Shown piece after piece: positions 844 to 19,553 of a DNA stretch of 23,155 bases; the stretch's first letter is position 1; every line of letters starts with the position of its first letter. The notes under the pieces were generated by a model. The model worked only from the letters and a program-made list of their open reading frames with translations, did not search any database and was not told where the DNA came from. The translations under genes and the position numbers were made by a program. This DNA is from a virus, in the IMG/VR virus record IMGVR_UViG_3300045482_000005, positions 1 through 23,155 of that record. One strand, given 5' to 3'.

Positions 844-870
844 TTCAGTTCTCCTTGAGGGTCAGTGGCG

Positions 871-1995: not shown

Positions 1996-2042
1996 GAGTT
2001 ACCTCCATTGAGGGCACACATGAGCACTCCTGCGCTCGAACT

Positions 2043-2058
2043 CCCCGGTTTCCCGGGA
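2043..2058 (-). other. GAAA-tetraloop hairpin in the capsid gene leader
   Basis: Read on the minus strand, TCCCGG, GAAA, CCGGGG forms a six-pair stem (one T-G pair) closed by a GNRA tetraloop. It sits just after the stop of the CsrA-like gene and about 48 bases before the capsid ATG. The 64-base leader holds four GGA triplets, one within the loop-proximal part of this hairpin and one in the capsid ribosome site. It is not followed by a T-run, so it is not an intrinsic terminator. It may be an RNA-stability or translation-control element. Confidence 0.45.
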
Positions 2059-2059
2059 C

Positions 2060-2263: not shown

Positions 2264-2279
2264 CGGCGCTCCTTGTGTC

Positions 2280-3239
2280 TCAGTGGGCCTGGCGCAGCAG
2301 GCGCTCCACCACAGCGGGCGGCTGCTTGGCCAGGAACAGCTCGGCTTCCTCGCCTTCCAGATTGGCGAACTGGTTGAAGAGGTCATCGCCCACCGGCGCT
2401 GCCGAGGCCGAGGGCAGACCGCCCAGCGTCTTCGGGCCCGGAGGCGGCGCGGTGCGCTGGGCAGCCGCGGGTGCCTGTGCCGGAGCCTGCGCAGGAGCCG
2501 CGGCCTGCTTGGGCTGCACGCCTCGCAGGGCCAGCAGCGCGCGGTGCGCTTGGGCGGCCACGTCTTCGAAGTCCGCTTGGGCGTTGTCCGGGTCCTCGAG
2601 CAGGCCGCTGAGCAGCGTGTCGTACTGGCGGCGTGCCTTCTCGTCGTTCGCGTAGTCGATCTCGCCGGCTTTCTTGGCCTGCTTGACAATGTTGGCGATG
2701 GCGCGCGCATGCAGCGAGGCCTGGGCCTGCTCGTTGGCCGCTTGCAGCGTCTCGGCGCGCACGCGGGCCGCGGTCAGGTTCTCCAGGGCCTCGGCCACCT
2801 CGGCATCGACGGCCGCGAACTCGTCGGCGTCGATCTCGCCGTCCATGAGCTGCTTCATGGCGCCAGCTTTCTTGGCCATGAGAGCCTTGCGCTGGTCGGC
2901 GTAGTCCTTGGGCACCTCGCCCTGGAACTTGGGCACGAACGGGGCTTCGCGCTGGTCGTCGTCCGCGATCTCGGCCAGGGCTTCGGCGCTGGATTGCTCG
3001 GCCGGGGTGCCTTCGCCGCCCGGCTTGCCGTCGCCCTCGGCTTGTCCATCGGTGCCGGCCTCGGAAGAGGCTTCGGCGACTGCGGCTTCTCCGGCCTCGC
3101 CGGTGTCATCGGCGCCCTGGGCTTCACTGGCAGGATTGCCAGCCAAGATGTCGGCAGCGTCCTCGCCTTGCAGCGCGGCCAGCTCTTCGGGGGTCAGGTC
3201 GGCCTTGTCGTCGGCCGAGAGTTCCAGTTGCTTTCCCAT
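2280..3239 (-). CDS. Putative head scaffolding protein
   Basis: Encodes 319 residues. The N-terminal third is strongly acidic and low complexity (Ala, Glu, Gly, Asp). The middle (about residues 100-200) is predicted long helix or coiled coil with KDYADQRKALMAKKAGAMKQ. A Pro/Ala-rich linker (PAQAPAQAPAAAQ) follows, and the C-terminal helix ends in ELFLAKQPPAVVERLLRQ. Acidic, helical, non-enzymatic proteins between portal and major capsid genes are usually scaffolds, which direct capsid assembly and then leave the head. The assignment rests on this composition and on gene order (portal, small protein, this, CsrA-like, capsid). No protease motif was found that would make it a fused maturation protease. 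Confidence 0.75.
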   Translation of the reverse strand: MGKQLELSADDKADLTPEELAALQGEDAADILAGNPASEAQGADDTGEAGEAAVAEASSEAGTDGQAEGDGKPGGEGTPAEQSSAEALAEIADDDQREAPFVPKFQGEVPKDYADQRKALMAKKAGAMKQLMDGEIDADEFAAVDAEVAEALENLTAARVRAETLQAANEQAQASLHARAIANIVKQAKKAGEIDYANDEKARRQYDTLLSGLLEDPDNAQADFEDVAAQAHRALLALRGVQPKQAAAPAQAPAQAPAAAQRTAPPPGPKTLGGLPSASAAPVGDDLFNQFANLEGEEAELFLAKQPPAVVERLLRQAH

Positions 3240-3269
3240 GTCGTGCTCCTTGGGGTGGTGATGAAAGGC

Positions 3270-3455
3270 TTACTTCGTGGCCTGGGCGGCCTGCAGCGCC
3301 TGCATCTGCTCCTTGGCCTTGGCCTTCGCGGCGGCCAGGCGCTTGGGGTCCTTCTTGATCTCGGCGGCGCGCAGCAGGGTGCGCAGGTCATCCTCGGCGC
3401 GCCAGTCGGCTTCCTGTTTGGCGCTCACTTGCGCGGCGCTTAGGGTCTTGGCCAT
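3270..3455 (-). CDS. Small charged helical protein, unknown
   Basis: Encodes 61 residues, rich in Ala, Lys, Glu and Gln, predicted as two helices (QEADWRAEDDLRTLLRAAEI and LAAAKAKAKEQMQALQAA). The ATG at 3455 lies one base beyond the portal stop, and its AGGAG ribosome site is inside the last portal codons, so translation is probably coupled. Small helical genes sit at this spot in many phages of this type, but I know no tested function. It could assist portal or scaffold assembly. Confidence 0.65.
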   Translation of the reverse strand: MAKTLSAAQVSAKQEADWRAEDDLRTLLRAAEIKKDPKRLAAAKAKAKEQMQALQAAQATK

Positions 3456-3456
3456 G

Positions 3457-5640
3457 TCACATCACTCCTGGTTGCAGACCGTCAGCGGCCTGAGTTTCAA
3501 TTCCAGCCATGGCCCCGTCGGCCTGCTGTGGTTCGGGGATCGCGGGCCCGGGCTGGGCCCCTTGCGCTGCGGCCGGGTCGATCACGCCGGCCCCGCCCTT
3601 GTCCTGGAAGCCCGCGGAGCGCAGCAGTTCATCGGCGATGGGGGTGATGCCCGGCGCCATGGCCAGCACCTGGGCACCCTGGGCGGCCATGTAGAGCGAT
3701 TCCAGCCGCTTGGCCATCGCCTCGGCGTCCAGCTTCTCGCCCTTGGCCTGGGCCTCCTTGATCGCGGCCTGCATCTGGGCCATCTGGGCCTGGAACTGCG
3801 CCTGTGCAATCGCCTGCTGCTGCGCCTTGGCGGCCTGCTGCTCGGGCGTGTCTTCCTCGCCCGGGGCGTTCTGGCCGGTGACGCCGCGCACGCGCTGCAG
3901 GATCGTCTCGCGCTTGGGCAAGTTGGGGTGCATCTCGAAGACGAGATCGAGGATGGCCACCACCACCTGCGGGGCGACCGGGGCAAGCTGGCCCAGCAGC
4001 TCCATCGTGCTGTCGAAAGCCCCCTCGGCCAGGCTCTGCTTCCACGGCTGCTCGCCGATCACGAAGTGGGCCTGCCGCGCGGTGATGTCGTTGAGCACCT
4101 CGCCGTTCGGCCCCGGCTGGTTGATCTTCACGTAGTCGAAGCGCGAGGACTCGCCCGGCACGCCGAAGGTCTTGGGCTGGTTCACGAACTGCTCGCACAG
4201 GCTCAGCGTGAGCTCGCCCTCCAGTTGCCGGGCCAGCAGCAGGTTGTCGAAGGGCTCGGTGGTGAGCATCGAGCCCTGTTCCTGCTTGGCGATGATGGCC
4301 TTGCCGGAGCGGGCGGTGGTGTCCAGGCCGCGGGCCTCGCCGTTGACACCCGAGCCCATGCGGATGGCCTGGATGTTGTGCTCGGCCAGGCGCAGGTCGC
4401 CCTCCACGAAGGGTTGGCCCTCGCGGATCTGCACCTTGCTGCCCGAAAGCGCGCCGTCGGCGAAGGTGAGCACACCATCGGGGGCTGCTGCCTCGTCGCG
4501 CAGTTGCTCCTCGTCCATCACCTCACGGTCCAGGGCCGACTTTTCCAGGCGGATCTGGTTGGCCGACAGGCGCCACTGGGCCTTGGACATCTGCTTGTTC
4601 AGCACGTCCTGCGGCCCGCGCTGCTGGCGGATCATCCCGTAGGGCGCGCGGTCCTTCTTGCGCCGGTAGCACCACACCGGGACGAAGGGGAAGCGGTTGT
4701 GCTTGTACGGGCTCCAGGTTTCCAGCAGGGTGTCGTACTCGGTCATGATGGTCACGCGCTTGCGCATGCGAACCGGGTCGTTCAGGCTGGCGCCGCCGTC
4801 GCCCTCGCGGCTGGGCACATACACCTCGTTGGCCCAGCACTCGATCAGCAGCACCCGCTCGCGCGGGTTGGTGAGCCAGGCGTCGGCGTCGTAGGGCGCC
4901 CACTTCTGCGGCATCGCGCCCACCGGGCTGGTCATGCCGCTGATGGGCTCGCCGTTCCACCACTCCAGGTAGGTCGATCGCTGGTCGCCCTCGATCAGGG
5001 CCTTCCTGAGCAGGTCGCCGTGGCCGAGATAGGCCTCGGCAATGTCCAGGTCCACCTCCTTGAAGCGGAACTGGTAGCGCCAGTCATCGTCGGGGATCGG
5101 GCTCATGCCCAGGCTGTCGTACAGCATGTTGCGCCACGTCTCGGAGCGCACGTAGACCGGCTCGTCGCTCTCGTCATCGCGCACGCCCACCTCCAGCCAC
5201 CCCAGGCCGGCCTTCACCGACTCCTCGAAGGCCCAGGAGCGTGCCCAGGGCGTGCGGTTGACGTCGGACAGGTACTTGAGCAGCTTGGTCTTGGCCTGGG
5301 CGTCCTCGTAGGCCTCCTTGCTGTCGTCGCTGCGGCTGGTCACCAGGTGATCGACGCGGGTGCGCCGCTCGGTGCCGATCATCCAGTCGATCGTGGGCTT
5401 GACCTCGTTGTAGACCACGGGGTTCTGGCCACGGGCCAGCAGGGCGGCCGCTTCGTCGGGCTGGTACTGCAGGCCGTCGTAGTAGTCCTCGTCCATCGCC
5501 ATCTGGTAGCGGTTGGCCGCCTGGCGGGTGAGCTCCATCTGGAACCAAGCCTTGCGCGTGCGAAAGCGCTGGATCTTGGCTTCGTCGTGCTTGCGCTCTT
5601 CCGCGCGCTGGGAGCCCGTGCGGGCTTTGATGGTGGCCAT
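3457..5640 (-). CDS. Portal protein, P22 gp1-like
   Basis: Encodes 727 residues. The product would form the ring at the packaging vertex through which DNA enters and leaves the head. The start region, with KAWFQMELTRQAANRYQMAMDE and then DYYDGLQY, and the segment NPVVYNEVKPTIDWMIGTERR, are characteristic of the P22-type podovirus portal family; 727 residues agrees with P22 portal (about 725). Further family segments include WAFEESVKAGLGWLEVGVR and RNMLYDSLGMS. The C-terminal 150 residues are Gln/Ala-rich helix, as expected for the portal barrel. The ATG at 5640 overlaps the previous stop by one base. It lies between terminase and scaffold as usual for head modules. Confidence 0.92.
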   Translation of the reverse strand: MATIKARTGSQRAEERKHDEAKIQRFRTRKAWFQMELTRQAANRYQMAMDEDYYDGLQYQPDEAAALLARGQNPVVYNEVKPTIDWMIGTERRTRVDHLVTSRSDDSKEAYEDAQAKTKLLKYLSDVNRTPWARSWAFEESVKAGLGWLEVGVRDDESDEPVYVRSETWRNMLYDSLGMSPIPDDDWRYQFRFKEVDLDIAEAYLGHGDLLRKALIEGDQRSTYLEWWNGEPISGMTSPVGAMPQKWAPYDADAWLTNPRERVLLIECWANEVYVPSREGDGGASLNDPVRMRKRVTIMTEYDTLLETWSPYKHNRFPFVPVWCYRRKKDRAPYGMIRQQRGPQDVLNKQMSKAQWRLSANQIRLEKSALDREVMDEEQLRDEAAAPDGVLTFADGALSGSKVQIREGQPFVEGDLRLAEHNIQAIRMGSGVNGEARGLDTTARSGKAIIAKQEQGSMLTTEPFDNLLLARQLEGELTLSLCEQFVNQPKTFGVPGESSRFDYVKINQPGPNGEVLNDITARQAHFVIGEQPWKQSLAEGAFDSTMELLGQLAPVAPQVVVAILDLVFEMHPNLPKRETILQRVRGVTGQNAPGEEDTPEQQAAKAQQQAIAQAQFQAQMAQMQAAIKEAQAKGEKLDAEAMAKRLESLYMAAQGAQVLAMAPGITPIADELLRSAGFQDKGGAGVIDPAAAQGAQPGPAIPEPQQADGAMAGIETQAADGLQPGVM

Positions 5641-6113
5641 CAGATGGTGTCCTCGCTGAGGGTCTTGCCGGTGGCCTCGTCGCTGAGCTCCACCTCGAGC
5701 AGGGCTTTGCCGGCCTCGGCCTGGCGCGCATCACGCGGCATGGGCGGCATGAGGATCAGCTCGGGGATGTAGTGCATCACCACGTCCACCAGGGTGCTGA
5801 CCTCCACCTGCAGGGGCGCGCGGTCGAAGCACTCCACCAGCGCGGCGCGGGCCTCGGCGAAGGCCTCCGGCGTGGGCTTGCCGCTGGGGTCGGCGTACTT
5901 GCCCACCGAGCTCAGGCAAATGCCCCACACGCCGGCCTCGCGCCCACCGGCCACGGGCCAGATGGCCAGCATGGGCTCGGTGGTGCGGCGCCCAGAGAAC
6001 CATTCCAGGCTCACGCAGTAGCCCTTGAAGGTGCCGGTCTTCCAGCTGGTCGGCCCGCCGAGCGAGTACAGGTCGCGCCCGAGGGTGTCCACGAGAGGGG
6101 TGTTGATGTTCAT
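5640..6113 (-). CDS. Conserved phage protein between large terminase and portal, unknown
   Basis: Encodes 157 residues, starting at an ATG that overlaps the terminase stop in an ATGA. The sequence has a beta-rich N-terminal half (GTFKGYCVSLEWFSGRR, MLAIWPVAGGREAGVWGICL) and a helical middle (PEAFAEARAALVECFDRAP), ending in an acidic tail. It has no signal peptide or recognised motif. Its tight coupling to terminase and portal suggests a role in head assembly or packaging, but this is only positional. Confidence 0.75.
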   Translation of the reverse strand: MNINTPLVDTLGRDLYSLGGPTSWKTGTFKGYCVSLEWFSGRRTTEPMLAIWPVAGGREAGVWGICLSSVGKYADPSGKPTPEAFAEARAALVECFDRAPLQVEVSTLVDVVMHYIPELILMPPMPRDARQAEAGKALLEVELSDEATGKTLSEDTI

Positions 6114-7552
6114 AGGATCTTGGGGTTGCGCTCGCGCCGCTCACGGCGCGGCTGAGGTTCGGTGGTGGCCCTGGCCAGGCCTGAGACGATCAGGTAGCGC
6201 GTTGCGTCCATGAGGTGGTCGTTCTCCTTGACGATGGCGCCCTTCTCGTCGCGTCGGTACAGCCGGTACTCGCCGAGCCAGTTCTGCAGGCTGCGGAAGA
6301 CCTTGAGGCGGCCGGTGGACAGGCGCTGCCACACGTCGTAGATGCCGGCCTCGCGTGCGTTGTTGGCCGGCTGTAGGTCCAGGCCGTGCTCCCGGTAGGT
6401 TTCGATGAGCTTCTCGCCGTCTTTCTGGCTTCGCCCCCGCGCGGCCGGGTCGATCACGCCGGGTATCCACTTGCCCTTCGCCTTGATCGCGTCGGCGTGG
6501 ATGCTTGGCTCTGCTTGACCGCGGTAGTGCTCGGCAGTCAGATACACCACGTCGTTCTCTCGGTCCCACGCTGCCCAGGCTGCGGCTGTGCGATTCCATC
6601 CCACGTCCATGCCATAGGATCGCGGCCAGTGCTCCGGGATGTCGAAGGGCGCCACCACGATGTCTTCCTCCGGCACCGGGTAGATCGCTCCCGCCCCCAG
6701 GCTGGGAATGCCCTTTGTTCGGGCGTCGCGCTGGTGGGGCATCAGCTTGGCCAGCATCTTGATCTTCACGTCCTCGTCCAGGTGAGGCACGTCGTCCCAT
6801 CCGCACTGCACGATGGCCCGGCTGGCCGCGGCGTCTGTGCTGGTCTTCTGGAGGCTCACCACAAGCGGCGTCAAGCCGTTCAGGGGCGTGAAAGTGAGCA
6901 TCGAGATGCCTCGGCGCGTCATCAAGCGCACCAGGCCCTCCTCGTACACGTCCTCGGGGCACTCTTCGTCGGCCCAGAACACGTCCAGCTCGAAGCCCTG
7001 GAAGATCTCGCGGCCCTGCTCGTAGCTGCGCAGCCACAGCTCCGACTCGCCGCCGGTCACGTGGCGCACGGTCACGCGCTCGATGGCGCCCTTGACGTGT
7101 GGCCGCGGGATGTAGCTGATGATGTCTTGACCAGGGATCAGCCCCGTGCCGATGTTCTCCGGGCGGTCGGTCGTCCCGCCCAGCAGCTTGAGCTGCAGGA
7201 TGTCGCGCGTGGTTTCGTGGGTGTCGCCGGACGCTAGCGCCCGGATCGGCCGGTTGAACCTGCGCCCCTCCCACCACGCAGGGTACTTGCCCGTAAGGTG
7301 GTACGCGATCTCGCAGCCTGCGGCCACGGTCTTGCCGGTCCTGTTGCCCGCGATGAACGCCCGCTCGTCCTTCTCGGCGCCGAGCCGGAAGAACTCGACG
7401 TGCTTGGGGTACAGATCGCGTCGCAGCGGCCCATCGTCCGGGAACATGCCGTCGAGCAGGCGCATGCGGCTACGCCGCTCGACCTCTCCCAGCAGCACCG
7501 CCAGTTCGGCCTTGTCCTCAGGGCTCAGAGTCGAAAGGTCAATCGCCCCCAT
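6110..7552 (-). CDS. terL: Large terminase subunit, DNA-packaging ATPase/nuclease
   Basis: Encodes 480 residues. It cuts concatemeric phage DNA and drives it into the prohead through the portal. Walker A is AGNRTGKT at residues 68-75; Walker B is LDVFWADEE at 189-197. The RNase H-like nuclease half shows the expected acidic residues: D316 in GMDVGWN, D368 in GVIDPAARG and D449 in HLMDATRYLI. I chose the ATG at 7552 because GGAGGG lies eight bases upstream; the longer frame begins with an Arg-rich stretch encoded within the small terminase gene. The gene overlaps the small terminase by 14 bases and the next gene by four. Confidence 0.94.
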   Translation of the reverse strand: MGAIDLSTLSPEDKAELAVLLGEVERRSRMRLLDGMFPDDGPLRRDLYPKHVEFFRLGAEKDERAFIAGNRTGKTVAAGCEIAYHLTGKYPAWWEGRRFNRPIRALASGDTHETTRDILQLKLLGGTTDRPENIGTGLIPGQDIISYIPRPHVKGAIERVTVRHVTGGESELWLRSYEQGREIFQGFELDVFWADEECPEDVYEEGLVRLMTRRGISMLTFTPLNGLTPLVVSLQKTSTDAAASRAIVQCGWDDVPHLDEDVKIKMLAKLMPHQRDARTKGIPSLGAGAIYPVPEEDIVVAPFDIPEHWPRSYGMDVGWNRTAAAWAAWDRENDVVYLTAEHYRGQAEPSIHADAIKAKGKWIPGVIDPAARGRSQKDGEKLIETYREHGLDLQPANNAREAGIYDVWQRLSTGRLKVFRSLQNWLGEYRLYRRDEKGAIVKENDHLMDATRYLIVSGLARATTEPQPRRERRERNPKIL

Positions 7553-8270
7553 CTGCGGCGCCCTCCGTCTTCGGCGGCGTGATGGCCGTGATCCCAAACC
7601 GTGCCAGCCGCTTGGCCAGCTCGTCGTCGCTCATGGACCGAGCATCGATGGTCGCGTCGACCTGCACCTTGTCGCCGTAGACCCGCGGCTTGAGCTTCGC
7701 CGCCACCCATTTGCGTGCATCAACGCGCAACTTCGCGCGCTGCACCGCTGCATGGTTCGTCACCGGCCGGCCGTCTTCGTCTTCTGCCAGGTCGCTGCCG
7801 TCGTCGTCGCTGATGGACACGATCTCGTCGGCCAGCTTGTCGGAGCGGTCCTCGCGCGCACGCGCGTATTTGGCGTCTCTCTCAGGGTCGGCGGCGATCC
7901 AATCGCGGATCGTGCTGTAGCTCAGGCCCTGCTCTTGTGAGTAGGCCCACAAGTTTCCGCCGGACACGATGTAGTCGCACAGGGCCGTGATGGCACGAGC
8001 GGGGTCGGCGCTCCACTTCTGCCACGGGGTTTGCGGGGTCTCTGCGGCTGCTGCCGGTGCCGGCTTTGCCTTCTTGGAGCGGGCGCCCGGAGTTGAACCG
8101 GGCGACTCCGACGTAGAAGGACGGCGCCCTGCCAGTTGAGCTACGCCCCCCGCGGGTTGCTTGGGTTTGGCCGCGACCTTCTTGGCCGCCGGGCGCTTTG
8201 CCGGGGCCTTCTTCGGGTCAGGGGTGGTCGCCTTGGCCTTGGTGGGCTTCGGCGTACTCTTGCGCGCCAT
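7539..8270 (-). CDS. terS: Small terminase subunit with a tRNA-like insert
   Basis: Encodes 243 residues. It recognises phage DNA and recruits the large subunit for packaging. The conserved part is residues 83-215: an HTH-like segment (ITALCDYIVSGGNLWAYSQE, LSYSTIRDWIAADP) followed by YARAREDRSDKLADEIVSI and AKLRVDARKWVAAKLKP, typical of Sf6-like and related small terminases. The first 80 residues are Lys/Ala/Pro-rich and probably disordered. Residues 41-66 within this linker are the translation of a complete tRNA-shaped sequence (separate entry). The ATG at 8270 has GAGG about nine bases upstream; a longer frame to 8324 lacks a site. It is the first gene of the late operon. Confidence 0.88.
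   Translation of the reverse strand: MARKSTPKPTKAKATTPDPKKAPAKRPAAKKVAAKPKQPAGGVAQLAGRRPSTSESPGSTPGARSKKAKPAPAAAAETPQTPWQKWSADPARAITALCDYIVSGGNLWAYSQEQGLSYSTIRDWIAADPERDAKYARAREDRSDKLADEIVSISDDDGSDLAEDEDGRPVTNHAAVQRAKLRVDARKWVAAKLKPRVYGDKVQVDATIDARSMSDDELAKRLARFGITAITPPKTEGAADGGD
8075..8150 (-). tRNA. tRNA-Arg(UCU)-like sequence embedded in terS
   Basis: Read on the minus strand, 76 bases fold as a canonical cloverleaf including an encoded CCA. It has T8 A9; D-stem GCTC/GGGC with an eight-base loop holding A14, G18 G19 and A21; anticodon loop CTTCTAC with T33, anticodon TCT (34-36) and A37; a five-base variable loop; T-arm CCCGG, TTCAACT, CCGGG; discriminator T73; CCA at 8077-8075. Two pairs are broken: G2-G71 in the acceptor and T30-T40 in the anticodon stem. 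Each is one substitution from pairing. The first base is also the first base of codon 41 of terS, same strand. It may be a decayed, captured or still functional tRNA; the T discriminator is unusual for bacterial tRNA-Arg. Confidence 0.7.
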
Positions 8271-8313
8271 CCGTGTGTCCTCGTGGTGGTGGGCAGCCGC
8301 GAGGGAAAGAACG

Positions 8314-8336
8314 GCCCAGGGCACCAGGCCCCGGGC
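8314..8336 (-). terminator. GC-rich hairpin upstream of the late operon, possible terminator
   Basis: On the minus strand GCCCGGGGC and GCCCTGGGC pair over nine bases (one G-T) around the loop CTGGT, followed by the moderately T-rich CGTTCTTTCCC. It lies between the end of the early region and the terS start. A terminator here could limit readthrough into the late genes until antitermination, as at lambda tR'. The T-tract is imperfect, so it is only a candidate. The rest of 8271-8433 holds no open frame that I would call. Confidence 0.35.
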
Positions 8337-8433
8337 GTTCCACCAGTCCCCACTGGCTGCGATGGCAACTGCTTACCATCAAGGATGAGTAGAACCTGGG
8401 TTTTGCCGGAGTCAACGAGGCCGCATTGCGGGC

Positions 8434-8461
8434 TTGACTTCACACCAATGTGGTGTATAGT
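8434..8461 (+). promoter_or_regulatory. Promoter of the plus-strand island
   Basis: The -35 TTGACT (8434-8439) and -10 TATAGT (8456-8461) are separated by 16 bases. Both are near consensus, so this is one of the best sigma-70-like promoters in the window. Transcription would start near 8467-8469, just at the ATG of a 16-codon frame, and run into the four-gene island. The spacer holds a palindrome listed separately. Confidence 0.65.
8442..8456 (+). promoter_or_regulatory. Palindromic operator between -35 and -10
   Basis: ACACCA-ATG-TGGTGT is a perfect six-base inverted repeat with a three-base spacer. It fills the promoter spacer and touches the -10 box, so a bound protein would block RNA polymerase. 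The natural candidate ligand is the HTH protein encoded last in the same operon. No second copy of this palindrome was noticed in the window. Confidence 0.6.
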
Positions 8462-8467
8462 TCAGGC

Positions 8468-8518
8468 ATGGTGATCGAGTTGATCGCCACCGACGCCAGG
8501 CGGGTCCTGGCTCTCTGA
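8468..8518 (+). CDS. Possible 16-residue leader peptide, perhaps leaderless
   Basis: The frame ATG GTG ATC ... TGA encodes MVIELIATDARRVLAL. The ATG sits at the expected transcription start of the promoter, so the message would be leaderless. The stop codon runs into the GAGGAG ribosome site of the next gene, which would couple the two. It is too short to be sure of; chance is a fair alternative. Confidence 0.25.
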   Translation: MVIELIATDARRVLAL

Positions 8519-8528
8519 GGAGATCATC

Positions 8529-8801
8529 ATGAGCACCCGCACCACCTTTTTCACCCTCCGGGCACCGGGCCCGGCAGTACTGGTCGCCGACGCCTGCGAG
8601 GCCCTGCCCGACACGGGCGAGCACGCGCGCCGGATGGCTCTGACCGAGCACTCGGTCATCAAGACCGGCCACCGCGCCGGCCACTGGAGCCGCGAGGCGC
8701 TGGAGCGTCTGGCCACCCGTCACGGGATGGCGCTGGTATCCGCCTACTCGATCGCCCGCGACAGCAATGGATGGATCGAGGCGTCGCGCAGCAGTATCTA
8801 A
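8529..8801 (+). CDS. Small orphan protein, first main gene of the plus-strand island
   Basis: Encodes 90 residues. GAGGAG lies six bases before the ATG. The protein is soluble and mixed alpha/beta, with TTFFTLRAPGPAVLVADACE at the start and HWSREALERLATRHGMALVSA in the middle. No family is recognised. It is first in a self-regulated unit of small genes ending in an HTH regulator, oriented against the late and early operons on either side. That setting is typical of phage accessory genes such as counter-defence proteins, but nothing in the sequence shows the activity. Confidence 0.75.
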   Translation: MSTRTTFFTLRAPGPAVLVADACEALPDTGEHARRMALTEHSVIKTGHRAGHWSREALERLATRHGMALVSAYSIARDSNGWIEASRSSI

Positions 8802-8858
8802 CTCCCACCCCCGGCCCTGCACGCGGGGCCTGCGCACAGAACGCACGAAAGGACCATC

Positions 8859-9176
8859 ATGAGCACCACCTACGTCATCCACTGCGAGCCCGGCTACTTC
8901 GAGGGCGACATCCACGGCCGTGACAAGCCCTACATCCTGCTCAGCGAGCGCGACGGGCGAGCCATCGCCCTGGCCTCCAGCGACGAGGCCGAGCGCATCG
9001 CTGCGATGATGGAGCCCTCGGGCGGCGTGCAGCTCGACGACAACCAGCACTCCCTGCCGACCTACAGCGTCCAGGCCGCCCCTGCCGGCACGGCGCCGAT
9101 GACGATGCGCGAGGCCATGCGGGCGCTCGACCTGCACCACGACTACCGCGAAGACGGCTCCCGCATCACGGCATGA
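8859..9176 (+). CDS. Small acidic orphan protein in the plus-strand island
   Basis: Encodes 105 residues, with AAAGGA seven bases before the ATG. The 57 bases between it and the previous gene include a C-rich and G-rich stretch (CCCCCGGCCCTGCACGCGGGGC) that could fold weakly. The protein is acidic and mixed alpha/beta: YVIHCEPGYFEGDIHG, KPYILLSERDGRAIALASSD and a C-terminal helix MTMREAMRALDLHHDY. No motif or family is recognised. The end overlaps the next start by four bases. Confidence 0.75.
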   Translation: MSTTYVIHCEPGYFEGDIHGRDKPYILLSERDGRAIALASSDEAERIAAMMEPSGGVQLDDNQHSLPTYSVQAAPAGTAPMTMREAMRALDLHHDYREDGSRITA

Positions 9177-9421
9177 CCAGCAAGCACTACAGGTGGCAGC
9201 AGCGCTGGCGGCGCGAGCCTTCGGGCCATCTGCTGCATGACAGCGGCCTGCGCGTGCTCGTGACGCGAGGGCCGGACTACACCGACCTGCAGGCCTCGCC
9301 CGACACGCTGGAAGCCTGGCAGGCCTTCGAGGCTGCGCGCGGCGTGCCGATGCACGACATGCTGGCGAGGCTGCAGCGCCTGATCCGGGAGGCCGAGCAA
9401 TGGCACAGACTGAATGCGTGA
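9173..9421 (+). CDS. Small basic orphan protein in the plus-strand island
   Basis: Encodes 82 residues, starting at an ATGA overlap with the preceding gene. Its N-terminus is basic and aromatic (SKHYRWQQRWRREPSGHLL). A beta hairpin (LRVLVTRGPDYTDLQ) and two helices follow (TLEAWQAFEAARGV, MLARLQRLIREAEQ). No family is recognised. It overlaps the HTH gene that follows by 22 bases. Confidence 0.7.
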   Translation: MTSKHYRWQQRWRREPSGHLLHDSGLRVLVTRGPDYTDLQASPDTLEAWQAFEAARGVPMHDMLARLQRLIREAEQWHRLNA

Positions 9422-9636
9422 TCTATTCCATCGCGCCACCGCTGCCCGAGGACATCGTGACTGCCCGGCTCATGGCTGGGCACACCCAGTCCCAGGCTGC
9501 TGCATGCGTCCACCGCCCAGGCTACCGCTCGTGGCAGAACTGGGAGCGCGGCACCGCCCAGATGCCCGCCGACACGTGGGAGCTGTACCTGCTCAAGACA
9601 GGGCAGCACCCCGTGCACACGCTCCGAAAACGATAG
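9400..9636 (+). CDS. XRE-like HTH regulator closing the plus-strand island
   Basis: Encodes 78 residues. The central segment TARLMAGHTQSQAAACV, HRPGYRSWQNWERGT is a helix-turn-helix of the XRE/Cro type, followed by MPADTWELYLLKTGQHP, a pattern common in small phage and plasmid HTH proteins. It probably binds DNA as a dimer. As the last gene of a four-gene unit whose promoter carries a palindrome, it likely represses its own operon, as Aca proteins do in anti-CRISPR operons. The likeness to Aca2 (RSWQ-x-WE-x-G) is generic for the HTH and not proof of family. Confidence 0.82.
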   Translation: MAQTECVIYSIAPPLPEDIVTARLMAGHTQSQAAACVHRPGYRSWQNWERGTAQMPADTWELYLLKTGQHPVHTLRKR

Positions 9637-9653
9637 CCGCCCGCGACCCGGAG

Positions 9654-9881
9654 TCAACGGGACGCCAGGATCTCCACGGCCCTTTGCCGGGCCTCGATGG
9701 TCTTGGTGTCGGCCTGCTGCCAGCGCTTGCAGGAGTGGCCGAAGGCGTGGAAGGTGGCCCGGTAGGCGCTGCCTGTGCAGTTGATGAGCCCGAGCCTGGC
9801 CATCTCGACCAGGATCTCGTTGCGCTTGGCGTCCCGGCGGTCACGCATGGCGGCGTGGGTGCAGGTCAGGCAGGTGGTCAT
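9654..9881 (-). CDS. Small Cys/His protein, last gene of the early operon
   Basis: Encodes 75 residues, starting at an ATGA overlap. CLTCTHA at residues 4-10 with later Cys and His (INCTGSAY, FHAFGHSCKRW) suggests a zinc site. A basic helix (MRDRRDAKRNEILVEMARLG) lies between. Such small Cys-rich proteins are frequent in ninR-like regions, with mostly unknown roles. Its stop faces the end of the plus-strand island across 17 bases, where no clear terminator is seen. Confidence 0.7.
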   Translation of the reverse strand: MTTCLTCTHAAMRDRRDAKRNEILVEMARLGLINCTGSAYRATFHAFGHSCKRWQQADTKTIEARQRAVEILASR

Positions 9882-10288
9882 GTGTCCTTGCGATCCAGGA
9901 AACGCCGGATGCGCTCAACCAGTTCATCGCGGTTGTCTCCGGCGATGCCGAAGGCGCCCATGGAACGCATGAAGCGCGCGGCCCATTCCAGCAGTTCTTT
10001 CGCTTCCTGCAGGTCCCTCCGAAGCAGCTTCTCTTCGGCGGTCACCACCCCCTGAGCCGGCTCGGCGTCCTGCGTTGGCTCCGAGGTGGCCTCCTTGATG
10101 GCCTGCTGGATCTGGAGGACGGCGCGGATTTCGTAGGCGGCAAACTCCCAGCGACAGCCTCTGACCTGCAACCCTTCGACAAATCCGCGCAGGCCATTGA
10201 AGACCTCTTGGGTCACGCGCTCATCCGGGGCCTGCCCCCGCATCCTGCACAGCGCCCTGGCGGCGCGCTCGATCTGGTCTTCGGTCAT
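9878..10288 (-). CDS. Unknown early protein, helical
   Basis: Encodes 136 residues, mostly helical. The N-terminus TEDQIERAARALCRMRGQAPDE resembles a short element seen at the start of many phage proteins. A long middle helix holds YEIRAVLQIQQAIKEAT, and the C-terminal part is LLRRDLQEAKELLEWAARF. No enzyme motif or membrane segment is seen. It is in the distal part of the early operon, coupled to the next gene by an ATGA; a 12-base gap separates it from the gene before. Confidence 0.7.
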   Translation of the reverse strand: MTEDQIERAARALCRMRGQAPDERVTQEVFNGLRGFVEGLQVRGCRWEFAAYEIRAVLQIQQAIKEATSEPTQDAEPAQGVVTAEEKLLRRDLQEAKELLEWAARFMRSMGAFGIAGDNRDELVERIRRFLDRKDT

Positions 10289-10300
10289 CGTCGGGTCCTC

Positions 10301-10801
10301 TCAGAAGGGGTTGTTCACGTAGTCGGGCACCGGCACGCCCTTGGGCCACAGCCGGCGCTCCAGCAGTTCCTGCACGGTGTCCTGGTGGGCTTTCCACCAC
10401 ATCGCCTTGCGCTCGTGCTCGGTCAGCCGGGAGCCTTGGTCCAGGTCGCCGTGGCAGGTCGAGCACAGGCTCGCGCAGCGGTTGTCGTCGGCCTTGATGC
10501 TCTTGCCTTTGCCGTGCACGGCCCAGTTGGAGTGCGCACCGCAGACCGTGCCGTCGTCCTTCCCGCAGTTCTGGCAGGGGATCAGGCGGTAGGCCTTCAT
10601 GAGGTCTGCGCTGCGCACGTAGGCGCGCTTCTCGATCCTGGGTGACTGGCCCAGCCGGAACGGCGCGGCCTGGCGCTGCAGCTTCGGAGCCGGCCGGCGC
10701 TCGGACTTCAGCAGTTCGGCGGCCTCCAGGGCCTGCACCACTTCCCGGCGCTCGCAGCCGAGGGCGCGGGCCAGGGCGCGGATCTCGCGGTCGGGGGTCA
10801 T
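10301..10801 (-). CDS. Zinc-binding HNH-like protein, resembling YbcO/DUF1364
   Basis: Encodes 166 residues. Its N-terminal 35 residues form a small HTH-like region (REIRALARALGCERREVVQAL). The C-terminal half carries C76-x2-C79, C87-x2-H90, then HGKGKSIKADD and C113-x2-C116-H117. This spacing of Cys pairs, a basic GKG-IKA segment and a final CxxCH matches the DUF1364/YbcO group of lambdoid phages, a small HNH-fold nuclease family. The ATG at 10801 overlaps the upstream stop in an ATGA; a longer frame is not needed. A nuclease acting in recombination is likely but not shown. Confidence 0.75.
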   Translation of the reverse strand: MTPDREIRALARALGCERREVVQALEAAELLKSERRPAPKLQRQAAPFRLGQSPRIEKRAYVRSADLMKAYRLIPCQNCGKDDGTVCGAHSNWAVHGKGKSIKADDNRCASLCSTCHGDLDQGSRLTEHERKAMWWKAHQDTVQELLERRLWPKGVPVPDYVNNPF

Positions 10802-11235
10802 GCTGCACCTACCGTTGATCGTTTCGCGGGCGACTTGGGGGGATGAGGCTTCTTGATCTTCCGTCGCTTGCTCAGACACACCCAGCACATGTCATCGTCG
10901 TCGGTGCCGAGCCACCTGAAAATGGACCGTCTGTGCTCGTAGTTGCCACAATCGCAGCGCACCACCCACTTTGCACCCTGCTTGCCGCCCCCCTGGTTCG
11001 CTGCGTAGCCGATGATCGTCATTCGGCCTCGCCGACGCCCGGGAAGTTCGGCCAGCTCCGGCTTGTTCCTCAGCGCTTCCTGGGGAATCTTCCGTGTTGC
11101 CAGGGCCTCAGAGGAGAACACACGGTTGTCCTTGCGGATGTTTGGCGCCCACAAGTCCTCGGGCTTGGCCTTCTTGACCACCCTCATCGCCACCCGGTCG
11201 ATGGGAATGTGGTTCACAAGCAACTTCTCGATCAT
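10798..11235 (-). CDS. Zinc-ribbon phage protein, unknown
   Basis: Encodes 145 residues from the ATG at 11235 (ATGA overlap); the open frame upstream is not used. After a helical, basic N-terminus (NHIPIDRVAMRVVKKAKPEDL) there is a beta-rich zinc ribbon: GRMTIIGYA, KWVVRCDCGNYEHRRSIFR, MCWVCLSKRRK, giving CxC and CxxC as likely metal ligands. The tail is Lys/Pro-rich. Proteins with a VRC-CG-YE-RR core of this kind occur in the nin-like regions of many phages. Nucleic acid binding is a reasonable guess. Confidence 0.75.
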   Translation of the reverse strand: MIEKLLVNHIPIDRVAMRVVKKAKPEDLWAPNIRKDNRVFSSEALATRKIPQEALRNKPELAELPGRRRGRMTIIGYAANQGGGKQGAKWVVRCDCGNYEHRRSIFRWLGTDDDDMCWVCLSKRRKIKKPHPPKSPAKRSTVGAA

Positions 11236-11426
11236 GCTGCAAGCTCCAGCGCCATCTGGCGCGGATCGGTTTCGGGTTGCGCGCTGCGGATGCGCACGGC
11301 CTTGCGCCTGGGCTGGATCAGGCCGGCCAGGCGGGCGCACTTCGGTCCCCAGTGCTGGTAGCCCCGGCGCGTCAGGATCGACAGCGCGGAGCGGGAAAGG
11401 GGCTTTTTGCAGCGTGTGCAGCGCAT
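11232..11426 (-). CDS. Very small CxxC protein, unknown
   Basis: Encodes 64 residues. The ATG at 11426 overlaps the upstream stop by one base, and the stop overlaps the next start. MRCTRCKKPL gives one CxxC; W26 GPKC30 may complete a half zinc site. The rest is basic (LIQPRRKAVRIRSA). The open frame extends upstream inside the neighbouring gene, but that part is an out-of-frame shadow. It resembles the small zinc-binding proteins of nin regions; the function is unknown. Confidence 0.68.
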   Translation of the reverse strand: MRCTRCKKPLSRSALSILTRRGYQHWGPKCARLAGLIQPRRKAVRIRSAQPETDPRQMALELAA

Positions 11427-12007
11427 CAGGCGGCCTCCCGCATTACGCTGGACCGGCGGGCGACCTCGCACAGCCACTCCGCAAGCTCCGGAGGGGTCGC
11501 CTCGAACTCCCGCTTGCTGATGGATGGCCGGCAGCGCGCCTTGTCCCTGCCGCTCCACAGGCCCACCGTGTGCGTCGCCTCGCCAAGGCGCATTGGAATG
11601 GGTGGAATGTCCGCCGGCTCGCATCCGACGATGTACAGGCGGGTCCGCTTGCGTGCGCGATGGCCCCACCAGTGCTGGTCGATGATGAGCGTCCAACCCC
11701 CATGCTCGTCCCGCATCCCCGGTTCGGGAAGGCCCGCGACCTTCCAGAGAGTAGAGAGCTGCGGGTGCTCGAGGACGCCACCCCACTGACGAACATGGCG
11801 GATGGCGAGGTGAGCCAGGTCCTTCTCGCCATCCCTCGGCTTCGCGCAGTGTCGAAGACTTGCCCAGGCCCGGCACGGCGGATGCGCCACCACCGGCACG
11901 CCGCCAGGCCAGTTTCGGGCGTCCCTCGCCTCGTCCCAGGCATCGACCCCGGGCATGGTCTTGTAGATCGAGTCCGCGCGCACGAACAGGGCGGCTACCT
12001 CACGCAT
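11426..12007 (-). CDS. C5 DNA methyltransferase-like protein, minimal or degenerate
   Basis: Encodes 193 residues. Three segments fit cytosine-C5 methyltransferases: AHPPCRAWASL (motif IV-like, C45), GGVLEHPQ (motif VI-like, but EHP rather than ENV) and ARKRTRLYIVGC (motif VIII-like RxRxxxVG). The SAM-binding FxGxG at the start is not evident (VAALFVRADSIY), and there is room for no target recognition domain. So it has the fold's signature but probably not the standard activity. The ATG at 12007 overlaps the previous stop by eight bases; a start at 12028 would include an Arg run and is less likely. Confidence 0.68.
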   Translation of the reverse strand: MREVAALFVRADSIYKTMPGVDAWDEARDARNWPGGVPVVAHPPCRAWASLRHCAKPRDGEKDLAHLAIRHVRQWGGVLEHPQLSTLWKVAGLPEPGMRDEHGGWTLIIDQHWWGHRARKRTRLYIVGCEPADIPPIPMRLGEATHTVGLWSGRDKARCRPSISKREFEATPPELAEWLCEVARRSSVMREAA

Positions 12008-12194
12008 GCTCGGCCTCCTCCGGCGCAATCCTGAACTCGCACTCGAACGCGATCACCGCAGGAGGTGCCATGTGCGCCACTCGCGGGTGGTCGATCGGTG
12101 CGGCTGTGCGGCGCAGGCAGTCCTCGCAGCCCTCGCGCCATTGGCCTTCGGCTTGCACTCCTGGGCAGCGGGCGACATCGGCGGGTAGGTTCAT
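12000..12194 (-). CDS. Small Cys-rich nin-region protein, unknown
   Basis: Encodes 64 residues from an ATG in an ATGA overlap with ninB. NLPADVARCPG, then WREGCEDCLRR gives three Cys that could bind zinc, and the C-terminal half has AVIAFECEFRI and an acidic end. The short N-terminus MNLP-D-ARCPG is common among phage proteins of this size. No activity is known to me. Confidence 0.72.
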   Translation of the reverse strand: MNLPADVARCPGVQAEGQWREGCEDCLRRTAAPIDHPRVAHMAPPAVIAFECEFRIAPEEAEHA

Positions 12195-12652
12195 GCCACC
12201 TCCTCCATCAGCCCGGCCCACTCTCGGCCCAGGCTCGCCGGGCGCCACTGCACGCCATGCTCGTCGCCCCAGGCCATGATGTAGTCGCTCAACTCCACGC
12301 ACTCCGCCCGCGTCAGCTTCGAGGTGTGGCGAAACACCACGTCCACGCCGTGCCCGTCGATGGCCGGCAGGAACTCCACCGGGTCGCCCCGCGAGCGCAG
12401 CCACGCCGCCGTGAGAAGGCGCTTCCAGGTATCGGTGTCGCGCTTTCGGCCCATCCACTCCACCTGCCGGGCGATGTCGCCGATGCGGGAATGCAGGAGC
12501 CGGTTCTGGGCATCGCTGCGCGTCTCCAGGCGCACCTCGAGCACCAGCCTGTGGCCGGCGACCAGCATGGCCTTGATCCAGGCCCAGACCTGCGGCAACT
12601 GCTGCGCGGCCTGCTGCGCGGTGGCCAGCACCAGGGTTTGCTTGTCGCTCAC
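12191..12652 (-). CDS. ninB: NinB/Orf family recombination protein
   Basis: Encodes 153 residues from a GTG at 12652, chosen because GAGGAGG lies four bases upstream and the GTG overlaps the previous stop (GTGA). It follows lambda NinB (Orf) along its length. SDAQNRLLHSRIGDIARQVEW (SLDQNR...GDVSRQVEW in lambda) is the hallmark, followed by DTDTWKRLLTAAWL and, near the end, ELSDYIMAWGDEHGVQWRP. NinB binds single-stranded DNA and mediates the action of SSB and RecFOR-type recombination. It works well with the ERF annealing protein encoded at the right edge. Confidence 0.9.
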   Translation of the reverse strand: MSDKQTLVLATAQQAAQQLPQVWAWIKAMLVAGHRLVLEVRLETRSDAQNRLLHSRIGDIARQVEWMGRKRDTDTWKRLLTAAWLRSRGDPVEFLPAIDGHGVDVVFRHTSKLTRAECVELSDYIMAWGDEHGVQWRPASLGREWAGLMEEVA

Positions 12653-12942
12653 TGCACCTCCTCCACCATCCGCACCACCTCGGGCCGGCGCCCGGTGCGG
12701 AAGTGCACAGCCTCCTTCACCACTTCGGCCCGACCCTCCACGAAAGCACGGCCCAGGGGCGTGATGCGGCACACCTGGTTGCGGCCGTGGCCCGTGGCGG
12801 GCTCGATGAGTCCCAGCTCGCGCAGCCGCTCAATAGGCCAGTAGACGTTCGCCTTACCCCTCACGTGCCCGGTGATCTGAGAGGACATGGCAAGGCCGTC
12901 CATCTCGTACAGGCGGCGGATGGCGACCTTCCAGGCGCTCAT
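12649..12942 (-). CDS. Small winged-helix DNA-binding protein
   Basis: Encodes 97 residues; the ATG at 12942 is in an ATGA overlap. The sequence reads as a winged helix: VAIRRLYEMDGLAMSSQITGH, then WPIERLRELGLIEP (recognition helix and strand) and RNQVCRITPLGRAFVEG (wing). It may be a transcription regulator within the replication operon or act at the origin with the initiator and P-like proteins. No family name is offered. Confidence 0.75.
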   Translation of the reverse strand: MSAWKVAIRRLYEMDGLAMSSQITGHVRGKANVYWPIERLRELGLIEPATGHGRNQVCRITPLGRAFVEGRAEVVKEAVHFRTGRRPEVVRMVEEVQ

Positions 12943-13703
12943 GCACCAACCTCCTGGCGCATGGCCGGCGGCAAGGCGCCTGCCTCGACGCCAGCGAAAC
13001 CCGTGCTCGCGGGCGGCGCTTCTTCGTGAGCCATCAGGGCACACCTGGCCATGTCCACATGCGCCACCGGCAGGCGCTCGCCAGCTTTCACGCGGTCCAG
13101 CAGGCGCTCGGCCCACTCGGTGCCGCGGCGGATCGTCGGGGCCTCGACCTTGAGCGCGGCTGCGCGCACCTTGGCCTCGTCCCTTGACAGCGGCTCGGGC
13201 GCCGGCAGCGCCTTCGGCGGCGGCGGGATCTCGGCAGGCAGCTCGCCGCGCTCGACCTTGGCCTTGGCCTTCTCGAGCTCACCCTTCCACCGCTCGCCGT
13301 GCTTGGCGAGCTCGCCTGTGCGCAGCTCGTGCGCCATCTCGCGGTAGGCGTGGAAGACCCACGGCGCCGACCAGGTGCCCACCTCGCCGGCCTCGCGCTC
13401 CTTGGCGGCCGCCTGGGCCTCGTACCACAGCAGCGTGGGGTTCATCGGCGGGCGGCAGAGCTTCAGGAACTCGGGCAGGGTCGGGGGCCAGTCGCGCTGC
13501 TCGCACGCGGTCAACCCACGGCGCAGTTCGTCGCCAGACAGGCCGGCCAGCTTCTGCGCCCAGAAGGCCTTGAGCGTGGCCGGGTCTTGGCTCCCCCACT
13601 GGTCCACGAACTTCGAGCCGTACAGAGCGCCAAGCTCGGCAAAGATGCGCTCGATCCACTTCGTCGGCAAAGGCTCAGACGTCGATGTAGTCGCCAGTTG
13701 CAT
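12939..13703 (-). CDS. Replication protein P-like helicase loader
   Basis: Encodes 254 residues, with GGGAG seven bases before the ATG. The first 80 residues match the lambda P type domain: KWIERIFAELGALYGSKFVDQW, LKAFWAQKLAGLSGDELRRGL, DWPPTLPEFLKLCRPP. Lambda P recruits the host DnaB helicase to the O-bound origin. The middle is a long charged helix and a Pro-rich linker. The start lies 29 bases inside the upstream initiator gene, the usual O-P arrangement. The exact loader mechanism is inferred. Confidence 0.85.
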   Translation of the reverse strand: MQLATTSTSEPLPTKWIERIFAELGALYGSKFVDQWGSQDPATLKAFWAQKLAGLSGDELRRGLTACEQRDWPPTLPEFLKLCRPPMNPTLLWYEAQAAAKEREAGEVGTWSAPWVFHAYREMAHELRTGELAKHGERWKGELEKAKAKVERGELPAEIPPPPKALPAPEPLSRDEAKVRAAALKVEAPTIRRGTEWAERLLDRVKAGERLPVAHVDMARCALMAHEEAPPASTGFAGVEAGALPPAMRQEVGA

Positions 13704-14496
13704 GGCTTGCTCCCTTCACGAACTCGCCGCCCAGGGCGGCCATGGTTTCCTTGCGCTGGTCCATCCGCGTGCCGCCGCGCTCGCCGCTGGAGCGCTGGCA
13801 CGCGGCCTTGAGGAACGATGGGGGGTCGGCGGGCCGCTCGAGCACCGCGACGCGCACTGCCTGGACGACGATCTCAGCGCCGTAGTCCTTGACCAGCTTT
13901 CCGACGAAGTAGCCGCACTGCTTGGCAGGCATGCCGCTCTGCTCCAGCAGCGACTTCCCAGCTGCCCAAAGCTCGTCCTTGGTCATCTGCTCAATGGTCT
14001 TGGCCGGCGGCGAGCCGCCCGCTCCGTCAGGAGCGGAAGAAGCGAACGTAGTGAGCGGTGTAGGTGATGGTGGAGGGCATTCCTCATGCATATGCTCTGG
14101 CAATGCTTGTGGCATGCTTGGAGCATTGCTTGAGGAATGCTCTTGAGGCTTCTTCCATCGTGCTTGTGCTGCCCTGCCGGCTTTCTCCGCGGCCTTCTTG
14201 GAGCGTTCATCAGCCTCCGCAATCTCGGCTTCGACACGCTTGTGCCACCACACGCCGTCACCGACCCTGAAGAACTTGGCCAGCACCGGGCGAACCCTCT
14301 TCCATTCGGAGCGCTCCAGCTTCGTGATCGCTCGCAGCTCCTCGTCATCGTCAGCCAACGCCTTGCGCTCGCGCCAGTAGGCAATGAGCAGCAGCAGGTA
14401 GGCCCCGTGCTGAAGCGTGGTGAGCTTCATGGTGTCGGCCAGGTAGGCGCCGATCCACAGCGGCATCCAGGTGTCGGCCTTCTTGTCACCGGCCAT
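13675..14496 (-). CDS. DUF1376 phage replication initiator
   Basis: Encodes 273 residues. The N-terminus is DUF1376: DTWMPLWIGAYLADTMKLTTLQHGAY (in part), then LLLIAYWRERKAL and ITKLERSEWKRVRPVLAKFF, ending in a basic helix with KAGRAAQARWKK. A low-complexity linker (about residues 125-165) follows, then a helical C-terminal domain (YFVGKLVKDYGAEIVVQAVR). This plan (DNA-binding N-terminus, linker, partner-binding C-terminus) and the P-like gene after it point to the role of lambda O. The linker DNA holds iteron-like repeats. The ATG at 14496 overlaps the methyltransferase stop by one base; a start at 14511 is possible. Confidence 0.85.
   Translation of the reverse strand: MAGDKKADTWMPLWIGAYLADTMKLTTLQHGAYLLLLIAYWRERKALADDDEELRAITKLERSEWKRVRPVLAKFFRVGDGVWWHKRVEAEIAEADERSKKAAEKAGRAAQARWKKPQEHSSSNAPSMPQALPEHMHEECPPPSPTPLTTFASSAPDGAGGSPPAKTIEQMTKDELWAAGKSLLEQSGMPAKQCGYFVGKLVKDYGAEIVVQAVRVAVLERPADPPSFLKAACQRSSGERGGTRMDQRKETMAALGGEFVKGASHATGDYIDV
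14077..14147 (-). repeat. Iteron-like repeats inside the initiator gene, candidate origin
   Basis: On the plus strand the core ATGCTYT/ATGCTTG begins at 14092, 14103, 14114, 14125 (as ATTGCTTG) and 14137: five copies at spacings of 11, 11, 11 and 12 bases, close to one helical turn. The cluster is bounded by a nine-base inverted repeat, GCATTCCTC (14077-14085) and GAGGAATGC (14132-14140). The tract is clearly less GC-rich than its surroundings. It lies in the linker-coding part of the initiator gene, the same relative place as the lambda origin in gene O. Confidence 0.55.
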
Positions 14497-15146
14497 CAGG
14501 CTGCCTCCCACGAGAAAAGGTCCATGGTTGCTGGCGGCTCTGGCTGGGCAAGAGTGCGCTCCACGTGTTCAATGCGTGCCCGAGCAATCGCCACATATTC
14601 CTCCTCACGCTCGATGCCGACGAACCTGAAGCCCTCCAGGACGGCGCCTCTTCCAGTGCTGCCGCTGCCCATGAACGGGTCCAGCACCACGCCGCCGGGA
14701 GGTGTCACCAGGCGGCAGAGGTAGCGCATCAGGTCGGTGGGCTTGACGGTGGGGTGGTTGTTCTTGCCCTGGGCGGGCGGCTTGCCGTCGATGCGCGTGT
14801 CGTTGCCGACCATGCGTCGGCCGCGATGTTGGCCGTAGGGGTCGGCCGTCACGGTCGGCATGTGGCCCAAGCCTTCGTCCCGCTCCCGCTTGCTCGCCTT
14901 GGCGCAGTAGAAGAACCGGGCGGCGCTGCCGGTGTCGCCCCTTGGGGTGGTGGCCGGGCGCCCGTTGAACTGCCCGTAGACGGCGTTCGTCTTGCTGCTC
15001 GGCTCATTGCCAGTAACGGCGCCCTGCTGACCGTTGGCCTGCGGGAACGCCGCCAGCACCTCGTCGCGCGCCGGGTTCGGCTCCGCCCGAAACAGCGCCT
15101 GCAGGTGCGCCGGCATGGCCTTGTATGTCTCCTCGTCAATCCGCAT
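14496..15146 (-). CDS. C-terminal half of a split DNA methyltransferase
   Basis: Encodes 216 residues carrying the second half of a beta-class amino-methyltransferase: ATTPRGDTGSAARFFYCAKA (68-87), HPTVKP (131-136, motif X) and DPFMGSGSTG (156-165, motif I, SAM binding), ending in EYVAIARARIEHVE. It lacks the catalytic DPPY, which is in the separate gene at 15728-16891. In the usual single-chain protein these parts follow one another, so the gene has been split by the HNH gene between them. The ATG at 15146 lies 11 bases inside the HNH end, allowing translational coupling. The two halves might still assemble, as natural split methyltransferases can. Confidence 0.85.
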   Translation of the reverse strand: MRIDEETYKAMPAHLQALFRAEPNPARDEVLAAFPQANGQQGAVTGNEPSSKTNAVYGQFNGRPATTPRGDTGSAARFFYCAKASKRERDEGLGHMPTVTADPYGQHRGRRMVGNDTRIDGKPPAQGKNNHPTVKPTDLMRYLCRLVTPPGGVVLDPFMGSGSTGRGAVLEGFRFVGIEREEEYVAIARARIEHVERTLAQPEPPATMDLFSWEAA

Positions 15147-15741
15147 AGCGAGTCCTTCCGTGTTCTTCGTAATGGCATGCGCGGCAGAGCGTCACGCCGT
15201 TGTCGAGCGCCCAGAGTTCGGCGGCATGAAGGCGGGCGTCGTCTCGCGACGAGATGCCAAGCGCCTCGATCAGATCCGCAAGCGGTGTGCGGTGGTGGGC
15301 CTCAAGGGTTTCCGTGGCGGCGCAGCGCGTGCATTTATGGCCGTCCCGCGCCTTCACCGCATCCATCCAGCGACGGTTCTCGGTCATGCGCCGGATCGAC
15401 GCATTCAGCTTGGACGCCCCTCCCTTCCATCGGTAGTGCGCCTCGCCGCGCACCTTTTCGCCGCGAGCCGCCACGCGATCCGGGTTCGCTGCGCACCAGG
15501 CTTTGTGGGACGCGGAAGTCTTGGCCTTAGACTCGGCGCGGTGCCGATAGCCGGCGCGTCGGTTGTCTCCGGGGCGGCGCCCCAGCTTCAGCGCAGCGGC
15601 TTGCGCCTCGGTCACGCCGGATGCGGCCTGCGCCTGCCCCCGATGCTCAAGGCAGGCGACGTGACGAACCCGCGCGAGATCGGAGGGCCGCCGATACAGC
15701 GGCTTCTGGCAGATCACGCAGGCGCAGTTAGGCGTTCGCAT
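15136..15741 (-). CDS. HNH homing endonuclease between methyltransferase halves
   Basis: Encodes 201 residues. The N-terminus has a zinc ribbon (C8-x2-C11, C30-x2-H33); residues 98-108 (GEAHYRWKGG) fit the GxxH-x-WKGG motif common in phage homing enzymes. The C-terminal HNH domain has WMDAVKARDGHKCTRC (C137, C140), LEAHHRTPL (H149, H150), N181 and CRACH (C186-C189). Such enzymes cut an uninvaded allele and copy themselves in by repair. The gene overlaps the upstream half by 14 bases and the downstream half by 11, filling the gap exactly, with no room for intron RNA. The start ATG at 15741 lies within the last codons of the upstream half. Confidence 0.88.
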   Translation of the reverse strand: MRTPNCACVICQKPLYRRPSDLARVRHVACLEHRGQAQAASGVTEAQAAALKLGRRPGDNRRAGYRHRAESKAKTSASHKAWCAANPDRVAARGEKVRGEAHYRWKGGASKLNASIRRMTENRRWMDAVKARDGHKCTRCAATETLEAHHRTPLADLIEALGISSRDDARLHAAELWALDNGVTLCRACHYEEHGRTRYAD

Positions 15742-18983: not shown

Positions 18984-18997
18984 CGTGAGAGCCCTTT

Positions 18998-19546: not shown

Positions 19547-19553
19547 GGCCGAC

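Follow-up and report, generated by a model that had tools for sequence, protein, structure and literature searches.

What is encoded by the four small plus-strand genes at positions 8434–9636 of the window, the 23,155-nucleotide stretch of viral DNA analyzed here by computation? An earlier note had seen in their layout an anti-CRISPR (acr-aca) or other counter-defense locus. At a probability of about 0.62, the island is read here as an autorepressed acr-aca-type moron (accessory) operon whose cargo most likely blunts host defense. The features of the island are as follows:

8434–8461, plus strand: sigma70-type promoter TTGACT-16-TATAGT, 10/12 matches in a consensus scan, with promoters correspondingly placed in relatives
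8442–8456, no strand: palindrome ACACCA-ATG-TGGTGT, predicted to be the operator that the HTH protein binds, from its sequence and from a position and geometry as in Aca10-like loci
8529–8801, plus strand: ORF1, 90 aa, pI 9.3, orphan with a coding signature, predicted cargo
8859–9176, plus strand: ORF2, 105 aa, acidic (pI 4.9), orphan with a coding signature, predicted cargo
9173–9421, plus strand: ORF3, 82 aa, one of 17 members of an undescribed family whose genes are coupled to a regulator gene downstream
9400–9636, plus strand: HTH protein, 78 aa, a divergent Aca10 relative and putative autorepressor

The four ORFs were found where the earlier note had placed them, and all are coding. Their GC3 values (0.81–0.93) and positive codon scores constitute the coding signature of the phage, and the long antisense ORFs within the island DNA have negative codon scores. 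ORF2 and ORF3 overlap by 4 nt, and ORF3 and the HTH gene by 22 nt. As in acr-aca operons, the small cargo genes and a small terminal HTH gene make up a single operon. The strong plus-strand promoter that had been proposed is near-consensus and is the better of two promoter-like sites in the scanned region, for which 0.2 were expected in shuffles. The palindrome described in its spacer is present, with perfect 6-bp arms, and can alternatively be written as ACACCAA-T-GTGGTGT (7 + 1 + 7, one mismatched pair). The island thereby shares with acr-aca operons a promoter of the constitutive type whose core contains an inverted repeat. Taken by itself the palindrome is only marginally above chance (shuffle p ~0.06), and the argument for an operator therefore rests on relatives, in which palindromes are found at that place too.

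The window is a fragment of a Bcep22-like phage that is probably temperate. The portal protein shares 35–40% identity with its counterparts in Burkholderia, Pseudomonas, and Klebsiella phages of ~61 kb. A capsid protein, a terminase, and a NinB relative are also encoded, and a Cro/YdaS-like gene and a repressor-like gene are adjacent to each other. A 61,189-bp IMG/VR contig with a 127-bp terminal repeat spans positions 104–23155 of the window, with 100% identity over 11227–23155 and 99.85% identity (17 differences) over 104–11353. The four-gene island is 100% identical in the two.

The orientation claimed for the island was also confirmed, since the genes on both sides are on the minus strand: terS, terL, portal, and capsid to the left, and the ORFs from 9654 onward to the right. 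Two minus-strand sites were observed nearby: a promoter-like site (9657–9630) immediately beyond the right end of the island, and a terminator-like site (8336–8313) just upstream of terS. The pair could represent a late promoter and its leader terminator, with transcription passing through the island in the antisense direction. It might be argued from this setting that the plus-strand transcript regulates early-to-late read-through as an antisense RNA and that the ORFs are incidental, for the island separates the early region from terS, opposes both, and is flanked by these two sites. Against this, four of four ORFs are coding, and conservation of the ORF3-HTH pair extends to otherwise unrelated settings, among them a plasmid and a chromosomal locus; an antisense role is thus very improbable.

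Two other features of the phage were observed. A tRNA-Arg (TCT) gene at 8075–8150 (minus strand; ARAGORN; Rfam 45 bits) is contained in the 5′ part of the terS reading frame (7539–8324), which continues through it on the same strand. The DNA methyltransferase gene at 14496–16903 (minus strand) appears to have been invaded twice. Its first part holds an in-frame LAGLIDADG domain (E = 7e-16), and an HNH-like ORF (15136–15741) precedes its C-terminal part. No group I or group II intron at this gene reached the Rfam threshold.

The earlier note had recognized no Aca family in the HTH protein, a statement that has to be revised. The protein matches PDB 7XI5 (E = 9.9e-12), which is Aca10 of Pseudomonas citronellolis; the Aca2 structures match weakly. 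In a direct comparison with Aca10, 58 of 65 residues were aligned with 29/58 identities (50%). This places the protein at the lower limit of the range by which Aca10 homologues were gathered, namely, 80–100% coverage and 50–100% identity (PMC9410906). Judged by its sequence, the 78-aa protein is a divergent Aca10-like protein. The Aca10 residues that have been tested are Q22, R34, Q37, and R44, together with the dimer residues G49 and E52, and R44 is the most critical for DNA binding (PMC9410881). In the alignment to Aca10, Q22, R34, Q37, and E52 are kept; R44 is replaced by Ala and G49 by Asp.

Relatives of the HTH protein, searched for in part with a three-row alignment because the full set of 13 was too divergent, are scattered over plasmids (99 records), viral contigs, and Burkholderiaceae-type genomes (25/399); 63 Klebsiella plasmid records were matched in the regulator search. 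Two plasmid relatives are located just downstream of antirestriction genes: L013, by annotation, and L023, where ArdA two genes upstream was confirmed by Pfam. On a phage contig (L026, 3611–4237 of IMGVR_UViG_3300045738_001973), an unrecognized 93-aa protein is followed by an HTH protein 49% identical to that of the window. With its spacer palindrome, this operon is another candidate counter-defense operon.

The three small proteins had been described as orphans. This held for ORF1 and ORF2, for which no relatives were found in phages, plasmids, or IMG/VR (best matches, E 0.1 to 1); their AlphaFold models, made without an alignment, were not usable (mean pLDDT of 56 and 48, respectively). ORF3, in contrast, has 16 relatives in phages, in chromosomal DNA, and on one conjugative plasmid, pVEIS01, where the relative (73% over 52 aa) directly precedes an Aca10-like gene. 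More relatives come from bacterial genomes of the same family and from 13 further IMG/VR contigs. The alignment of the 17 members contains 11 invariant columns. In 15/15 loci with an intact next gene (14 loci compared together, the window among them, and G603), there is an overlap of 1–26 nt between the end of ORF3 and the following gene, whose product is a small regulator-like protein. The regulators after ORF3 are of several types:

Aca10-like regulator, five loci: window, L083, L099, L100, L102
KorA/TrfB-like regulator, five phage contigs: L093, L095, L096, L098, L101
XRE relative: L090
Another, possibly XRE-like, protein: G603
Small basic proteins above no Pfam threshold: L094, L103, L104

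The L093 regulator matches PF16509 (E = 5e-11), that of L095 is just below the threshold, and those of L096, L098, and L101 are near-identical to L095. Classification of the small basic proteins as ribbon-helix-helix proteins was considered and dropped, as none exceeded a Pfam threshold. In L105 the contig edge comes right after ORF3, so the next gene was not scored. In L088 (1264–2184) and L097 (811 onward), an IS1595-like transposase gene starts at the ORF3 stop or just beyond it, where the regulator is in other loci. The check that had been suggested, a search for the small proteins next to aca genes, was thus productive for ORF3, whose relatives precede Aca10-like genes in five loci, the window included, and KorA/Aca4-like genes in five, and not for ORF1 and ORF2, which have no relatives. 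The cargo upstream of ORF3 differs among loci and includes RadC, DUF932, and LPD29 proteins. The main text of a paper on plasmid leading regions contains no mention of RadC, DUF932, or Aca (PMC11541004), and cargo of the RadC/DUF932 type is therefore only suggestive.

The same pairing could be that of a type II toxin–antitoxin system in which ORF3 is the toxin and the HTH protein the antitoxin, in the toxin-first order of HigBA and MqsRA; the antitoxin would autorepress via the palindrome, with ORF1 and ORF2 as passengers. The overlap of ORF3 with the next gene is tight in all loci, several regulator families occur after ORF3, as toxins pair with various antitoxins, and the Aca10 fold resembles HigA2 and MqsA (PMC9410906, PMC9410881); the L102 regulator itself matches MqsA weakly. 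However, the ORF3 family has no match to toxins in Pfam, NCBIfam, PHROGs, or PDB, and additional small genes are regularly found upstream of ORF3 in the operons. ORF3 also persists in L088 and L097 with the transposase gene in the expected place of its regulator. Proteins of the KorA type are not known to be antitoxins. A toxin–antitoxin pair is thus rather improbable, and the acr-aca-type operon is retained as the preferred reading.

The operons with Aca10-like regulators have a sigma70-type promoter and a palindrome centered mid-spacer on one base. The site of L017, on a K. pneumoniae plasmid, AATACGCTCA-T-TGAGCGTATT, is identical to the Aca10 site proven by gel shift, and that of L102 is near-identical to the published Aca10 site. 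Variant palindromes are present in the viral contig L026 (ACACTCA-A-TGAGTGT), in L021 (GTACCCA-T-TGGGTAC), and in L012, L099, and L100, which shows that the site drifts. The window site agrees with the Aca10 operator ATACGCTCANTGAGCGTAT in position and geometry and differs from it in the half-site. With a matrix built from the relatives, this diverged half-site ranks 50 of 61,172 in the phage.

An Aca10-like regulator is combined with a promoter that could be detected in four ORF3 loci, and the spacer palindrome is present in 4/4: L099, L100, and L102, which were found without regard to palindromes, and the window, which was not. L083, on a plasmid, likewise has an Aca10-like regulator, and the part of its sequence that was read contained no clear promoter. 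For ORF3-locus promoters with other regulators the palindrome is present in 0/6 (odd-center scores of 2–4 of 8), and for control promoters in 3/71, all three in loci of HTH relatives. The Fisher values of 6e-9 and 1e-10 are inflated because L012, L017, L021, and L026 were chosen partly by their palindromes; the unbiased comparison is that of the ORF3 loci only. A different motif, TTGCRATAAACGAMTAATCGTGTATTAT, is common to four KorA-type ORF3 loci; the palindrome of the remaining one, L093, is different again. From this distribution by regulator type, the operator class follows the regulator class. The exact Aca10 operator was additionally observed in near-consensus promoters upstream of small genes in L110, L112, L115, and L116, followed by different HTH proteins in the first three and by no visible HTH in L116. 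One operator may thus serve several regulator families.

The exact Aca10 operator was detected in 11 IMG/VR contigs, and proven acr genes are under it. L107 is the published acrIC7-acrIC6-aca10 operon, identified by 100% Aca10, promoter, and gene order, and is headed by this operator. In L117 the operator precedes a gene for a 152-aa protein that matches 8dwq (E = 1e-98) and AcrF11 (6kyf, E = 1e-4), and then Aca10. L108, which is the same contig as L102, has the exact operator, an ORF3 relative, and then an Aca10-like gene. The acrIC7 and acrIC6 genes adjoin aca4 in one species and aca10 in another (PMC7913775), and Aca4 has a KORA domain (PMC9410906), so their partners are of the same two regulator classes seen behind ORF3.

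The island resembles the acrIC7-acrIC6-aca10 operon of Pseudomonas citronellolis (PMC9410881, PMC7913775) in its strong promoter, the palindrome centered in the spacer, the small cargo genes, and the terminal gene for a small HTH repressor that overlaps the last cargo gene. It differs in that the window has no AcrIC6 or AcrIC7 relative, the operator half-site is another, and R44 and G49 are not kept. With L117, where an AcrIF11-family gene is under the Aca10 operator, it shares the cargo slot before an Aca10-type gene; the cargo there is one known Acr family, whereas that of the window is three unrecognized proteins. The link to Aca4/KorA-type operons is through the ORF3 relatives that precede KorA-like regulators in five phage contigs; the window differs from these in its Aca10-like regulator and its operator. 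An island of Pseudomonas phage Sirocco (L016, 3811–4387) likewise has an HTH relative and is small and opposed to late genes, but its regulator is longer, with an extra C-terminal part, and it has one small upstream ORF and no ORF3. On the Klebsiella pneumoniae plasmid NZ_CP132707.1 (L017, 2431–3189), the exact Aca10 operator is followed by genes for an unrecognized 148-aa protein, which is a candidate Acr on a plasmid, and an Aca10-like regulator.

A mobile-element accessory operon, autorepressed by a solo Aca-like regulator, could alternatively serve phage or plasmid physiology that has no connection with host defense, such as host takeover or establishment. Most bacterial Aca-like genes have no known acr adjacent (PMC9410906), the HTH relatives occur in many plasmid contexts, and ORF3 relatives are found with RadC, DUF932, and LPD29 proteins of unsettled role. 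On the other hand, the ORF3 relative of L108 is under the very operator that acr operons use, and ArdA-type antirestriction genes adjoin two HTH relatives. Such a non-defense operon is unlikely; it and the toxin–antitoxin pair are the strongest rivals to the acr-aca reading.

The acr-aca-type architecture of the island is well supported by the Aca10 homology, the operator in the spacer, the exchangeable overlapping regulator, and known acr genes that are similarly placed. This part of the reading in the earlier note stands, terminal regulator included. As that note had also stated for Acr families, ORF1–ORF3 gave no match to a known Acr or anti-defense protein in Pfam, PHROGs, NCBIfam, PADLOC, or PDB, and identification of ORF3 as AcrIC6 was rejected (hhalign probability of 0.9%). 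These results count against the acr-aca reading, as do the two substitutions in the HTH protein and the diverged half-site. Judged by association, an anti-CRISPR activity of the cargo is possible, though at less than an even chance, and some other anti-defense activity is only slightly less probable. The recurrent position of the ORF3 family just upstream of small regulators, in phages and on a plasmid, makes it a good candidate for a new counter-defense protein.

On infection, the strong promoter would be free and the four genes would be transcribed at once. ORF1, ORF2, and ORF3 would be the cargo, most likely blunting a host defense system, as the terminal, presumably dimeric HTH protein of the divergent Aca10 family accumulates. 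This protein would then bind the spacer palindrome, exclude RNA polymerase, and switch the operon off.

The operon architecture is already known; new are the ORF3 family, ORF1, and ORF2. It is proposed, at close to an even chance, that the ORF3 family comprises undescribed, widely distributed counter-defense proteins of mobile elements that are coupled translationally to an exchangeable Aca-type repressor, and that ORF1 and ORF2 are two further unique inhibitors. The outcome is a testable candidate: a family, seen here in 17 members, that is linked to repressors of the Aca10-like and KorA-like types and to their operators, in a position equivalent to that of proven anti-CRISPR genes. That the operator class tracks the regulator class with the cargo gene unchanged is a useful rule to locate more such loci. 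If active, the ORF3 family would be a broad new inhibitor family.
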